Source of the DNA: Psychromonas sp. SA13A | Lineage (GTDB): Bacteria > Pseudomonadota > Gammaproteobacteria > Enterobacterales > Psychromonadaceae | DNA: 64,000 nt | Assembly (NCBI RefSeq): GCF_011378715.1 | Contig: NZ_WTKU01000005.1 | Span: 62,001-126,000, forward strand | Direction: 5' to 3' | Part shown: in pieces, positions 45,543 through 48,461 of the stretch | How the letters are laid out: the number at the start of each line of letters is the position of its first letter | How positions within the stretch are numbered: position 1 is the stretch's first letter | Notes under the pieces: generated by a model | What the model was told of the DNA's origin: nothing | Seen by the model: the letters and a program-made list of their open reading frames with translations, nothing else | The model's database searches: none | Made by a program: the position numbers and the translations under genes

Positions 45543-45653
45543 TTAAAGCTTAGTTACGAAGGTGCGAGCCTGGTAAAGAGCAACGCCACTAAGTATAATA
45601 ATAACGGCAACAGCAAGTATATCAGCTCCCGGAAATCCCCAAAAATCAGACAT
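45543..45653 (-). CDS. 36-residue single-span membrane peptide of the tmm operon
   Basis: Start ATG 45653 with an excellent ribosome site (AAGGAG, 6 bases). MSDFWGFPGAD, then a span of about 20 residues (ILAVAVIIILSGVALYQ), ends ARTFVTKL. Fourth gene of the minus-strand operon, 43 bp after the winged-helix gene. Unknown family; resembles small subunits that stabilise transporters. Too short for the usual 60-residue cutoff. Confidence 0.72.
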   Translation of the reverse strand: MSDFWGFPGADILAVAVIIILSGVALYQARTFVTKL

Positions 45654-45696
45654 TATATCTCCTTATTTAAAGTAAAAATAAACTTAGTACTCATTC

Positions 45697-45990
45697 TCAG
45701 GCTAATGCGGTGTCGCGCATACGCTGTCGACCGAAGTCGTTAAGTCTAAATTTAAATAACACTCGGCCTTCGCCAAAATACGCTTGTTCGTCGAGTTGTT
45801 CTTCAACACTTTCAATGATACCGCTGGAAAATAAATCAGCGAGTGTGACGCGTGTAGTACCACGCCAGTAAGCACCATTAAGACCGTATTCTTTCATCAC
45901 TGCGTCAGTCACTTCCCAATCCCAAATACCAATATCTAGCTGCTCATGAATCAATTGTAGAATGCGCCCTTTCATATGTAATCTTTTCAT
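45697..45990 (-). CDS. Winged-helix-like small protein of the tmm operon
   Basis: 97 residues from ATG 45990 (TTGGAG 6 bases upstream; an in-frame TTG at 46002 lies within it). Sequence KGRILQLIHEQ, WDWEVTDAVMKEYG, YWRGTTRVTLADLFSSGIIESVEEQ, VLFKFRLNDFGRQRM looks like a compact PadR/MarR-like winged helix: recognition helix, wing and a final helix. No ligand domain. Could be a local regulator of the tmm operon. 15 bp after the transporter gene. Family not recognised with confidence. Confidence 0.7.
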   Translation of the reverse strand: MKRLHMKGRILQLIHEQLDIGIWDWEVTDAVMKEYGLNGAYWRGTTRVTLADLFSSGIIESVEEQLDEQAYFGEGRVLFKFRLNDFGRQRMRDTALA

Positions 45991-46005
45991 TACGTACTCC
46001 AATTA

Positions 46006-47094
46006 TTACGATTTAATCGACTTAGTATTGCCAGTATCAGCTTTCGCTTCTGTCGATACAGCACGAACGACCTCCAGCACATCGTCACTTTCCGTAAACA
46101 TGACAAAACCGCCCCCAACAAATAAAAACAAACCAGCCAAGAAATTCCAATCAGGAAACTTAAGCGTGAATGCAGCAAGAAAGATAACGGCAAAAAGCCC
46201 ATACAATGCAGCAATTGCTTGTCCACGCCCGACACCTATCAATGGAAACGACTTATACCAAGAGACATAGCAGAAGGCAAAAGTGACACCTGCCAACAGC
46301 AGCCAACCGATAGCCGCCCAGTTAAATGTAGCGATAACTAGCTCTACAACGGGTTGATCAGTGAAGAAGTAGATCCCAGGTAGAATAAGTAAAACCCAAT
46401 AAAGGACTTCGGCCGTAAACCTCACCGTAATACCTACATCAGGATCAGCGACATCTAAGCCACGGCCTGCGATTGCACCTTCAACACCCCAGCCTATCGC
46501 TGCCATTGCGCCACCCAGATAACCAAGCCATCCAGCGTCGCCAGTACCATTAATTTCAGCAATAATACCGGGAGCATATACCGTCACACCACCAGCAAGA
46601 ATGATGAAAATACCCACGGCCGCACGACGAGTAATCTTCTCGTTGTACCAGAGCCTAGCTAAGCTAGCACCAATGATCGGATACATCAGTGCTGAAATGG
46701 CCGCAAAAGCCCCGCCGATATAACCAATCGCCAGATACGAACCAAAAATAGCCATCGGACCACCAAAAATAGCCCCGATAAAGAACCATTTGGAGATATG
46801 ACGCATCTGCTTAATGGTACGGACATACTCTCCTAATTTTCCCAATACCGCATTCCAAACAAACAGGAACAACAACACCATAATCGCGTTAAAGGTAGTT
46901 AACACCGCCGCAGCTAATAGAAACTCAGCATTAGTATCGTAGCTGAGGTCAACATAAGGAGCTTCAAACCAGACTGCAGAACCCGGCACATACCAAGCCC
47001 CCCACAGTACAGCTGCCCACAAAGCCCACATAAAACCCCAACGTATACTGCTCGCAGTGAAACGAGATCGGGCTTCATTCAAGCTTGGGTTCAT
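46006..47094 (-). CDS. EamA/DMT-type transporter coupled to tmm
   Basis: 362 residues, about ten spans. [19 protein letters not shown] and the central [50 protein letters not shown] are typical of one EamA repeat; the second repeat ends [24 protein letters not shown]. Its ATG overlaps the tmm stop (ATGA), so the two proteins are translated together. Drug/metabolite transporters move small organic molecules, usually outward. With Tmm the likely cargo is TMA, TMAO or a related amine; this is inference. The C-terminal tail (about 30 residues) is hydrophilic. Confidence 0.82.
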
Positions 47095-48461
47095 GAAATT
47101 TCCTTTACAAGCTGCTTTTTCTCTTCAAAAAGGAAGGTCTCTAGAGAATCGTCCATCGCTTCCATCCACGGTGTATGGTGAACAGGCGCTAGTGTTCCGG
47201 TCAATGTAGAACGATAACTCTTATTACGATAACCAAGAATATCGGCTTCTTTATCGTGTTCCCATTCTTTGAATGTTTCAGCAACAGCAGATACATCAAA
47301 ATCTGGGTAATCAGTCGGTGCAATTAGATCTTCAATGTAAGCAGCCTGAAAGTCGATATCGTCAGTAGGATTAGCAAGCTTAAGCTCACGGCTGACCCAC
47401 TCTTTAGTATCAGCGGTCATTACATCACTTTCAGGTAATTTAATGCGACCAAGCATTACATCACGCGCATACCAAGCCTGAGCATCGAACATATTGAAGG
47501 TATAGTACTGATCTTGCATACCCAGAAATATCAACTTCGGATTTGCTAGAGAAACAATCCCTTTATACAAACCTTCTGGATACATTCTGTTATGTGTCGT
47601 CAGCGTTAGTTCATTAGGTAGGAACGGGAAATAATGCTGATATCCCGTACACAGAATAATAGCGTCAACCTCTTTGCTAGTCCCGTCCTTGAAGTGAGCT
47701 GTTTTACCGGTTACGCCCGTGAGCAAAGGAACTTCGCTAAAAGATGCTGGCCAGTCAAAACCCATAGGGTTAGAACGATAACTGAAAGTAACTGATTTAG
47801 CGCCGTATTTATGACACTGTGTACCGATATCTTCTGCCGAGTAGCTACTACCAACCAATAACAAATCTTTACCTTTAAATTCACAAGCGTCACGAAAGTC
47901 ATGCGCATGTAAAACACGGCCTGGGAACTGTTCCAAACCTTCAAAATAAGGTGTATTAGGCGTTGAGAAGTGCCCAGTAGCAACGATTACATGATCAAAT
48001 TCTTCCGTACTCAGTTCGTCTTTCTTGAGGTCTCTTACTGTCACTGAAAATTTATCGCTAGCTTCATCATGTGTCACCCAATGTACCGCAGTATTAAAGC
48101 GGATGTATTGACGCATATTACTCTTAGCGATACGTCCCATGATGTAATCACGCAATACTGCACGTGGTGGATATGATGGGATAGGACGACCAAAATGCTC
48201 CTCGAAGCTATAATCCGCAAATTCTAAACATTCTTTAGGGCCATTTGACCACAAATAACGATACATGCTGCCGTGGACTGGCTCACCGTAGGCATCCAAG
48301 CCTGTGCGCCATGTATAATTCCACATGCCACCCAAGTCGCTTTGTTTTTCATAACAAACAATCTCAGGGATATCAGCACCGGCGTCGCGGGCTGCTTCAA
48401 ATGCACGTAATTGTGCTAAACCACTGGGGCCAGCACCTAAAATTGCAACTCTAAAACTCAT
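47091..48461 (-). CDS. tmm: Trimethylamine monooxygenase Tmm (flavin-containing monooxygenase)
   Basis: 456 residues from ATG 48461 (AAGGAATTTTT upstream), the usual Tmm length. FAD motif GAGPSG (9-14); Tmm-type [38 protein letters not shown] fingerprint [11 protein letters not shown] (179-189); NADPH motif VGSSYSAED (203-211) with Tyr207; end [14 protein letters not shown]. It oxidises trimethylamine to TMAO with NADPH and O2. The resemblance to marine Tmm sequences is strong from memory, beyond general FMOs. The frame is open for 69 codons further upstream but without homology there. Leads the operon with the EamA transporter. Confidence 0.92.

Follow-up and report, generated by a model that had tools for sequence, protein, structure and literature searches.

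Introduction

The closest described system comes from methanogenic archaea. In Methanosarcina mazei, the small protein sORF_05 is produced and located in the membrane, and its operon also holds the trimethylamine (TMA) permease MM_1691 and the hypothetical protein MM_1692; overexpression of sORF_05 slows growth, the protein is regarded as a possible permease subunit, and homologues are reported only within the Methanosarcinaceae (PMC11456600). The methanogen permease, MttP or MM_1691, belongs to the EamA family (PMC12155760) and is called a predicted or potential permease (PMC7374477, PMC5688252). An EamA protein of Eubacterium limosum, encoded in a choline demethylation cluster, has MttP of M. 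barkeri and the transporter LicB as its top TCDB hits (PMC12155760). Marine clusters with tmm, the gene for trimethylamine monooxygenase (TMM), are regulated by TmoR and TmaR (PMC13390433). This report concerns a locus in a 64,000-nucleotide stretch of the Psychromonas sp. SA13A genome (contig NZ_WTKU01000005.1, positions 62,001 to 126,000), hereafter the window, in which tmm is followed by the genes of an EamA-type transporter of the drug/metabolite transporter (DMT) superfamily, a winged-helix protein and a 36-residue membrane peptide.

The locus probably serves the import of TMA and its oxidation to trimethylamine N-oxide (TMAO), with the winged-helix protein and the peptide as dedicated partners of the transporter. 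The DMT would carry TMA through the inner membrane into the cell in the form of the trimethylammonium ion, and TMM would then oxidise it to TMAO with NADPH and O2. The winged-helix protein would be a cytosolic domain or subunit regulating the transporter, and the peptide a single-span membrane subunit of it. The sequences show the gene identities, the conserved gene order, the selection on the peptide, the predicted folds of the DMT and the winged-helix protein, the fusions of these two and the neighbouring enzymes, and from these I infer the cargo, the direction of transport, the complex, the regulation and the fate of TMAO. The locus has a permease of the same family as the methanogen system, while the partner enzyme is a corrinoid methyltransferase there and TMM in Psychromonas. 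The TMM enzyme is common to this locus and to the cluster of Ruegeria pomeroyi (tmm, tdm, TmoR and TmaR), whereas the latter has tdm and the Psychromonas genome lacks the DUF1989 domain.

The four genes of the Psychromonas locus

The four genes are all encoded on the minus strand. The tmm gene (47091..48461) encodes 456 amino acids and matches NCBIfam NF058570 with 823 bits against a curated cut-off of 675, covering positions 1-441 of 443. The closest solved relatives are bacterial flavin-containing monooxygenase (FMO) and TMM chains, with E down to 6.7e-211. By these matches the enzyme is a true TMM, the oxidation of TMA to TMAO itself being predicted. The transporter gene (46006..47094; 362 amino acids) exceeds the gathering score of Pfam EamA PF00892 (32.3 against 28.2 bits), and its LicB profile and fold matches described below make it a probable TMA (methylamine) importer of LicB/MttP type. 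Next come a PadR/MarR-type winged-helix protein (45697..45990; 97 amino acids), recognised by its predicted fold and conserved position, and the single-span membrane peptide (45543..45653; 36 amino acids), recognised by its selection and its sequence profile.

A preliminary description of this DNA had listed these four open reading frames, the identities of tmm and of the EamA-type gene, an ATGA overlap between the tmm stop codon and the transporter start codon and a strong ribosome site before the peptide gene, and all of these were found as described, the ribosome site being AAGGAG. A Shine-Dalgarno-like stretch precedes each of the four genes. The gaps are 15 bases between the DMT and winged-helix genes and 43 bases between the winged-helix and peptide genes. 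Promoter-like sites were no more frequent than in shuffled sequences (8 versus 8.5), and the same holds for terminator-like sites (2 versus 3.9), which lie within tmm and within the winged-helix gene. The gene overlaps and short gaps fit co-transcription of the four genes.

A conserved transporter, winged-helix and peptide cassette

Is this gene set found in other organisms? The DMT alignment was used as the query against genome contigs, and the best 80 of 141 relatives were taken together with 4 plasmid records, giving 84 loci; the 4 records were used out of 11, a second Paracoccus record and 6 weak matches being left out. In 82 of the 84 loci, ranging from Pseudomonadota to methanogens, the DMT gene is followed by the winged-helix gene and then by the peptide gene on the same strand. 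The two exceptions are an archaeal plasmid (L015), whose DMT has neither a winged-helix nor a peptide gene nearby, and a contig that ends inside the winged-helix gene (L090). A tmm gene lies directly upstream of this cassette, on the same strand, in 17 loci from Psychromonas, Neptunomonas, Halopseudomonas, Pseudomonas, Marinobacter, Vreelandella and a Burkholderiales metagenome-assembled genome (MAG), and elsewhere in the locus in 12 further cases. The preliminary description had proposed a four-gene module and had made its case depend on co-occurrence in other species. The four genes do recur together, in these six genera and the MAG, so that the set with tmm is conserved; tmm is nevertheless only one partner, and the remaining three make up a broader unit. 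On this distribution, the DMT, winged-helix and peptide genes constitute a widespread unit separate from tmm.

The same association was seen with other baits. A search of 163 genomes from one family with the winged-helix protein gave 7 matches, and all 7 have the DMT, the peptide and the end of tmm within 1.5 kb on either side. The winged-helix protein is rare, with 2 matches in 398 genomes drawn from the phylum. A further search covered 18 whole genomes, selected because they contain the cassette. The peptide profile has 19 matches in them, 18 of these within the cassette, and the DMT likewise has 19, all with a winged-helix and a peptide gene. The nineteenth DMT belongs to a second cassette in Methanimicrococcus with a winged-helix gene and a peptide gene of its own; this second peptide is not among the whole-genome profile matches but is present in the locus. 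The peptide match outside a cassette lies in Domibacillus aminovorans (L145, 1163-1605), beside a second copy of the winged-helix gene and with no DMT in the 1.1 kb upstream.

Some genes of the 84 loci were read in other ways. The tblastn search missed the winged-helix gene of L088 and the peptide genes of L058, L060, L063, L069, L078, L081, L087 and L094; these were read from the downstream frames, and their peptides and that of L088 are matched by the peptide profile. Peptide matches in L014, L036, L081, L083 and L092 were counted as the cassette peptide, their open pieces only beginning upstream. The winged-helix gene of L086 has no ATG, GTG or TTG start in frame, and in L064 the peptide gene lies 791 bases after the winged-helix gene. 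Alignment A4 omitted 12 of the 84 loci (L012-L016, L021, L040, L055, L063, L086, L088 and L090), and the trees were built from 68. The tree distances of the DMT and the winged-helix protein correlate (r 0.861, 2278 pairs), a value that shared descent alone can give.

The membrane peptide and its archaeal counterparts

The peptide has the consensus MSEFWGYPGADxLAxxxIxxLSxxALYxARTFVxKL. Among 19 sequences close to that of the window, the ratio of nonsynonymous to synonymous polymorphism (pN/pS) is 0.10 in frame, versus 2.6 and 3.9 in the shifted frames, and the variable sites number 11, 6 and 33 of 36 at the three codon positions. A profile of 69 bacterial sequences was compared with 26,323 six-frame pieces of the 84 loci and gave 82 matches, one per cassette, while 31,770 pieces of reversed DNA gave none. 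Of the 76 bacterial matches, 69 are in the profile by construction and 7 are not. No archaeal sequence is in the profile, and yet all 6 archaeal cassette loci are matched by it, with E from 2.6e-9 to 2.1e-5. A chance open reading frame is thus ruled out by the in-frame pN/pS and the single profile match per cassette, and the peptide is, on this evidence, a real gene under strong selection.

In three Methanosarcina loci, the DMT, winged-helix and peptide genes stand in this order beside a corrinoid protein gene, two of them also beside the trimethylamine methyltransferase gene mttB. The gene order and the peptides match the description of M. mazei, so that the archaeal cassette peptides appear to be the counterpart of sORF_05; MM_1692 is called a hypothetical protein (PMC11456600). 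The statement of the preliminary description that no system with this set had been described therefore stands in part: searches of the open-licence PMC literature brought up no paper that links tmm to an EamA gene or describes the three-gene cassette in bacteria, but the trio of a permease, a hypothetical protein and a small membrane protein had been described, without tmm, in M. mazei (PMC11456600).

Neighbouring enzymes and the putative cargo

A partner enzyme was called anywhere in a locus at E up to 1e-25 together with an identity above 35% for the old yellow enzyme (OYE)-type flavoprotein or above 40% for Tdm and the acyl-CoA-dehydrogenase-like flavoprotein; Tdm-like matches at 30-31% were dropped (L014, L045, L047, L067, L081, L084, L085 and L090). 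One representative per enzyme family was named by profile. By these rules, 67 of the 84 loci have a recognised partner. In Pseudomonadota, the partner is tmm in 19 loci and tmm with an iron-sulphur protein in one more, whereas 16 loci, together with 2 plasmid loci, have the OYE-type flavoprotein, mostly with the same iron-sulphur protein; that protein occurs alone in 2 Pseudomonadota loci and 1 plasmid locus. Actinomycetota have tmm and Tdm in 9 loci and Tdm alone in 4. MttB is found in 4 archaeal loci, a Thermincola MAG and an Actinomycetota MAG, a corrinoid protein without MttB in 1 archaeal locus, and the acyl-CoA-dehydrogenase-like flavoprotein in 6 Bacillota loci. A methyltransferase or corrinoid protein thus adjoins the cassette in 5 of the 6 archaeal genome loci as well as in Thermincola and one Actinomycetota MAG; the archaeal loci with neither are that of Methanimicrococcus (L089) and the plasmid L015.

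The representatives of Tdm and the corrinoid protein are above their profile cut-offs. The MttB pieces are below the cut-off of TIGR02369 (454 and 193 of 525 bits), because a TAG codon splits the frame into fragments; it does so in all four loci inspected, as in pyrrolysine-containing MttB. The OYE-type protein is presumably a trimethylamine or dimethylamine dehydrogenase and the iron-sulphur protein presumably a DgcB-like protein, no profile having named either of them so. The named enzymes have a common substrate, TMA or its demethylation products, and not a common product. Since chemically unrelated neighbours use TMA, and methanogens make no TMAO, the common cargo is probably TMA.

Several of these neighbourhoods have features of their own. 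The Thermincola and Actinomycetota MAGs (L038 and L039) have TAG-split mttB genes together with genes for corrinoid proteins next to the cassette. In Bacillus, Domibacillus, Paenibacillus and Peribacillus (L042 and L048-L052), the acyl-CoA-dehydrogenase-like flavoprotein is near the cassette in all 6 loci and an FMN-reductase-like gene in 5 of the 6; the flavoprotein is possibly a two-component TMA oxygenase or a dehydrogenase. A relative of it with 37-38% identity lies downstream of the peptide gene in five Actinomycetota loci with Tdm (L072, L073, L075, L078 and L092). In Methylophaga, Methylotenera and Novimethylophilus (L053, L055, L057, L061, L062, L064, L071 and L076), amino-acid-permease-like and OYE-type genes surround the cassette, and ribBA-like and folE2-like genes are also there in all of these loci except L071.

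Kinship of the transporter

A profile of 75 DMT sequences was compared with solved chains at E up to 10, and only LicB was matched (E 1.2e-10). The AlphaFold model of the window DMT has a predicted local distance difference test (pLDDT) value of 90.4. In the fold search, LicB chains are the two best matches (E 4.8e-8 and 8.2e-7; template modelling scores of 0.76 and 0.80 by target length), and LicB heads the 33 matches found at E up to 0.001. LicB (7b0k and 7paf) is a pneumococcal choline importer of the DMT superfamily. It is both the best fold match and the only solved sequence match, and a WGxE stretch is common to both proteins; the identity is, however, only 17-18%, and the cargo of LicB is choline, not TMA. 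Many invariant positions of the DMT are aromatic, as would be expected for a pocket binding a methylated ammonium group. The E. limosum transporter resembles the cassette DMT in its MttP and LicB kinship and sits between methyltransferase genes, although its cluster serves choline, not TMA (PMC12155760).

Small transporter partners are known, such as MetS of MetPS and the GlnK of AmtB-GlnK pairs. They resemble the present case in that a tiny membrane or cytosolic partner is encoded with the transporter. LicB is not known to have such small partners.

Role of the winged-helix protein

For the window protein, neither Pfam nor NCBIfam gives a match up to E 0.1. The model (pLDDT 94.6) is a winged helix, in agreement with the label that the preliminary description had given it from the letters. 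The invariant residues of the winged-helix protein are K7, W23, F86 and G87. RosR and PadR regulators are at the top of the Foldseek matches, with a best E of 1.8e-3 and none at E up to 0.001. In VIA, the best chains are a retron-Eco1 filament chain (Z 11.0), RosR (10.5), MarR proteins (10.4) and a cohesin head chain (10.2), the last of which is a winged helix in a protein-protein role. Because the regulators and the filament and cohesin chains score within about 1 Z of each other, the modelled fold does not decide between DNA binding and protein binding.

In three loci, the end of the transporter continues through a linker into the winged-helix protein without a stop codon, and a separate peptide gene comes next. 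These DMT-winged-helix fusions are single frames of 454 codons in L040 (7995-9359), 458 codons in L045 (5964-7340) and 459 codons in L047 (8001-9380), with no N and a proper stop in each, and they come from two Rhodobacteraceae MAGs and one gammaproteobacterial MAG. Since their DMT parts are 67-81% identical and mutually nearest in the set, a single fusion event is likely behind them. The fusion is strong evidence that the winged-helix protein works together with the transporter. It raises the odds of a three-component transporter and lowers those of a plain regulator.

It is suggested, tentatively and with slightly more doubt than belief, that the cassette encodes a three-component secondary transporter of Bacteria and Archaea. 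Its parts would be a DMT importer, the 36-residue peptide as a membrane subunit, and a winged-helix module that is either free-standing or joined to the C-terminus of the importer. This module would lack free DNA binding and would gate or sense transport as GlnK gates AmtB, and the whole system would provide general TMA import for at least four unrelated catabolic enzymes. A less likely explanation is that the winged-helix protein is a PadR-like, methylamine-sensing transcription factor of the operon, free or tethered to the membrane when fused, with a transporter made of the DMT and the peptide only. The PadR/RosR/MarR-type fold speaks for it, as do the matches of 6 of 73 relatives to PF03551 (PadR) at E up to 1 (best 8.4e-4; the window protein has none), and the membrane-tethered winged-helix regulators ToxR and CadC make even a fusion compatible with DNA binding. 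On the other hand, the winged-helix gene is fused to the transporter gene in three loci and, in the 82 loci of Bacteria and Archaea, always lies between the transporter and the peptide genes on the same strand. The proteins are also mostly acidic: of 79 members, 63 have an isoelectric point under 7, and the net charge of the presumed recognition helix, taken over 73 members, has a median of 0; these figures cover cassette members only. Acidic DNA-binding proteins exist, but the acidity and the fusion to the transporter together weaken the assignment as a DNA-binding PadR dimer.

Direction of transport and the host genome

No DUF1989 domain, a domain of Tdm, was found in the whole Psychromonas genome, and TorA is present above its profile cut-off. 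The preliminary description had noted that no TMAO demethylase is nearby and that TMAO may be kept, which is borne out genome-wide, except that TMAO may either accumulate or be respired. Because there is no Tdm domain and TorA is present, TMAO would be kept as an osmolyte or piezolyte, or would be reduced again when oxygen runs out. TMM and TorA may thus form a TMA/TMAO redox pair, the former making TMAO with oxygen and the latter using it without oxygen. CutC, as a source of TMA, had no match above the cut-off in the genome (best 94.9 of 1050 bits).

The presence of torA also allows the idea that the DMT is an exporter or equaliser of TMA, relieving the toxicity of TMA formed by TMAO respiration; TMA from carnitine inhibits the growth of Psychrobacter (PMC6514802). 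This is improbable in view of the LicB kinship and of the 67 loci in which the DMT stands beside catabolic enzymes. Still less credible is the export of TMAO made by TMM, as the preliminary description had suggested. The translational coupling of the DMT to tmm would suit it, and many DMT proteins are exporters. However, the same cassette stands beside enzymes that make no TMAO, such as the MttB and OYE-type neighbours of methanogens, Thermincola and Methylophaga, and the nearest solved relative, LicB, is an importer. As the neighbours have a common substrate and not a common product, export of TMAO was rejected as the main account of the cassette.

For TMA import, with the winged-helix protein and the peptide as transporter partners, the following points must be set on the other side of the balance. 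For bacterial members of the family, no transport measurements were found. TMA can also cross membranes as the free base, so that an importer is not strictly needed, and five BCCT genes elsewhere in the genome make other import routes possible. Among 295 genomes drawn from the order, tmm is found in 8, and 6 of these, from another genus, carry it without the DMT. The DMT of L015 lacks both small partners. Seventeen of the 84 loci (14 of Pseudomonadota and one each of Actinomycetota, archaea and plasmids) lack a recognised partner enzyme, and other methylated amines may be the concern of some loci. All three fusions come from MAGs and are close relatives, so that one event may account for them. 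Finally, the link to M. mazei rests on Methanosarcina relatives in the same gene order, not on M. mazei sequences.

The genomic island

The four genes lie on an island (44985..49220), and their guanine-plus-cytosine (GC) content is raised, at 0.443 versus 0.374 for the window, rank 607 of 611 segments of equal size. A related Psychromonas genome (L107) aligns at 84-85% on both sides of the island, its positions 94-1644 with 43368-44984 of the window and its positions 1492-3182 with 49221-50999. Because L107 is continuous across the site, the window has about 4.2 kb more than this relative. On either side of the island stands a direct repeat of 153 bases, on the plus strand, which corresponds to the 5′ end of a HAD hydrolase gene: the right copy (49221..49373) begins the intact gene, which runs to 50051 and is above the cut-off of TIGR01459, and the left copy (44832..44984) is a truncated second copy. 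The two copies are identical to each other at 141 of the 153 bases and to L107 at 143 and 145; being no closer to each other than to L107, they do not reveal when the duplication arose.

Immediately to the left of the island, a Crp/Fnr-type regulator and a YgaP-like membrane protein are encoded (43522-44476), and in L107 this stretch runs directly into the HAD gene. Another genome of the same genus (G076) has a DMT that shares 99.7% identity with the window protein, and its HAD gene match (in L119) starts only at residue 78. The DMT is found in only 2 of the 295 genomes of the order, both of this genus, which with the absence of the island from L107 might suggest a TMAO module special to marine Gammaproteobacteria whose accessory genes are chance neighbours carried by the island, but this can practically be dismissed, since in three bacterial phyla and in archaea the cassette is conserved together with differing enzymes and the peptide is under strong selection.

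Implications

New here are how widely the unit occurs in bacteria, its connection with the archaeal sORF_05, the DMT-winged-helix fusions and the variety of enzymes that it serves. The cassette provides a candidate gene set for bacterial TMA import and links bacterial TMA oxidation to the permease operon of methanogens. It places sORF_05, a translated archaeal small protein, in a family spanning two domains of life, and it opens to a clean test the idea that a secondary transporter includes a 36-residue peptide and a winged-helix protein among its parts. As a marker, the cassette may also help to find unrecognised TMA enzymes, for example the acyl-CoA-dehydrogenase-like flavoprotein of Bacillota.

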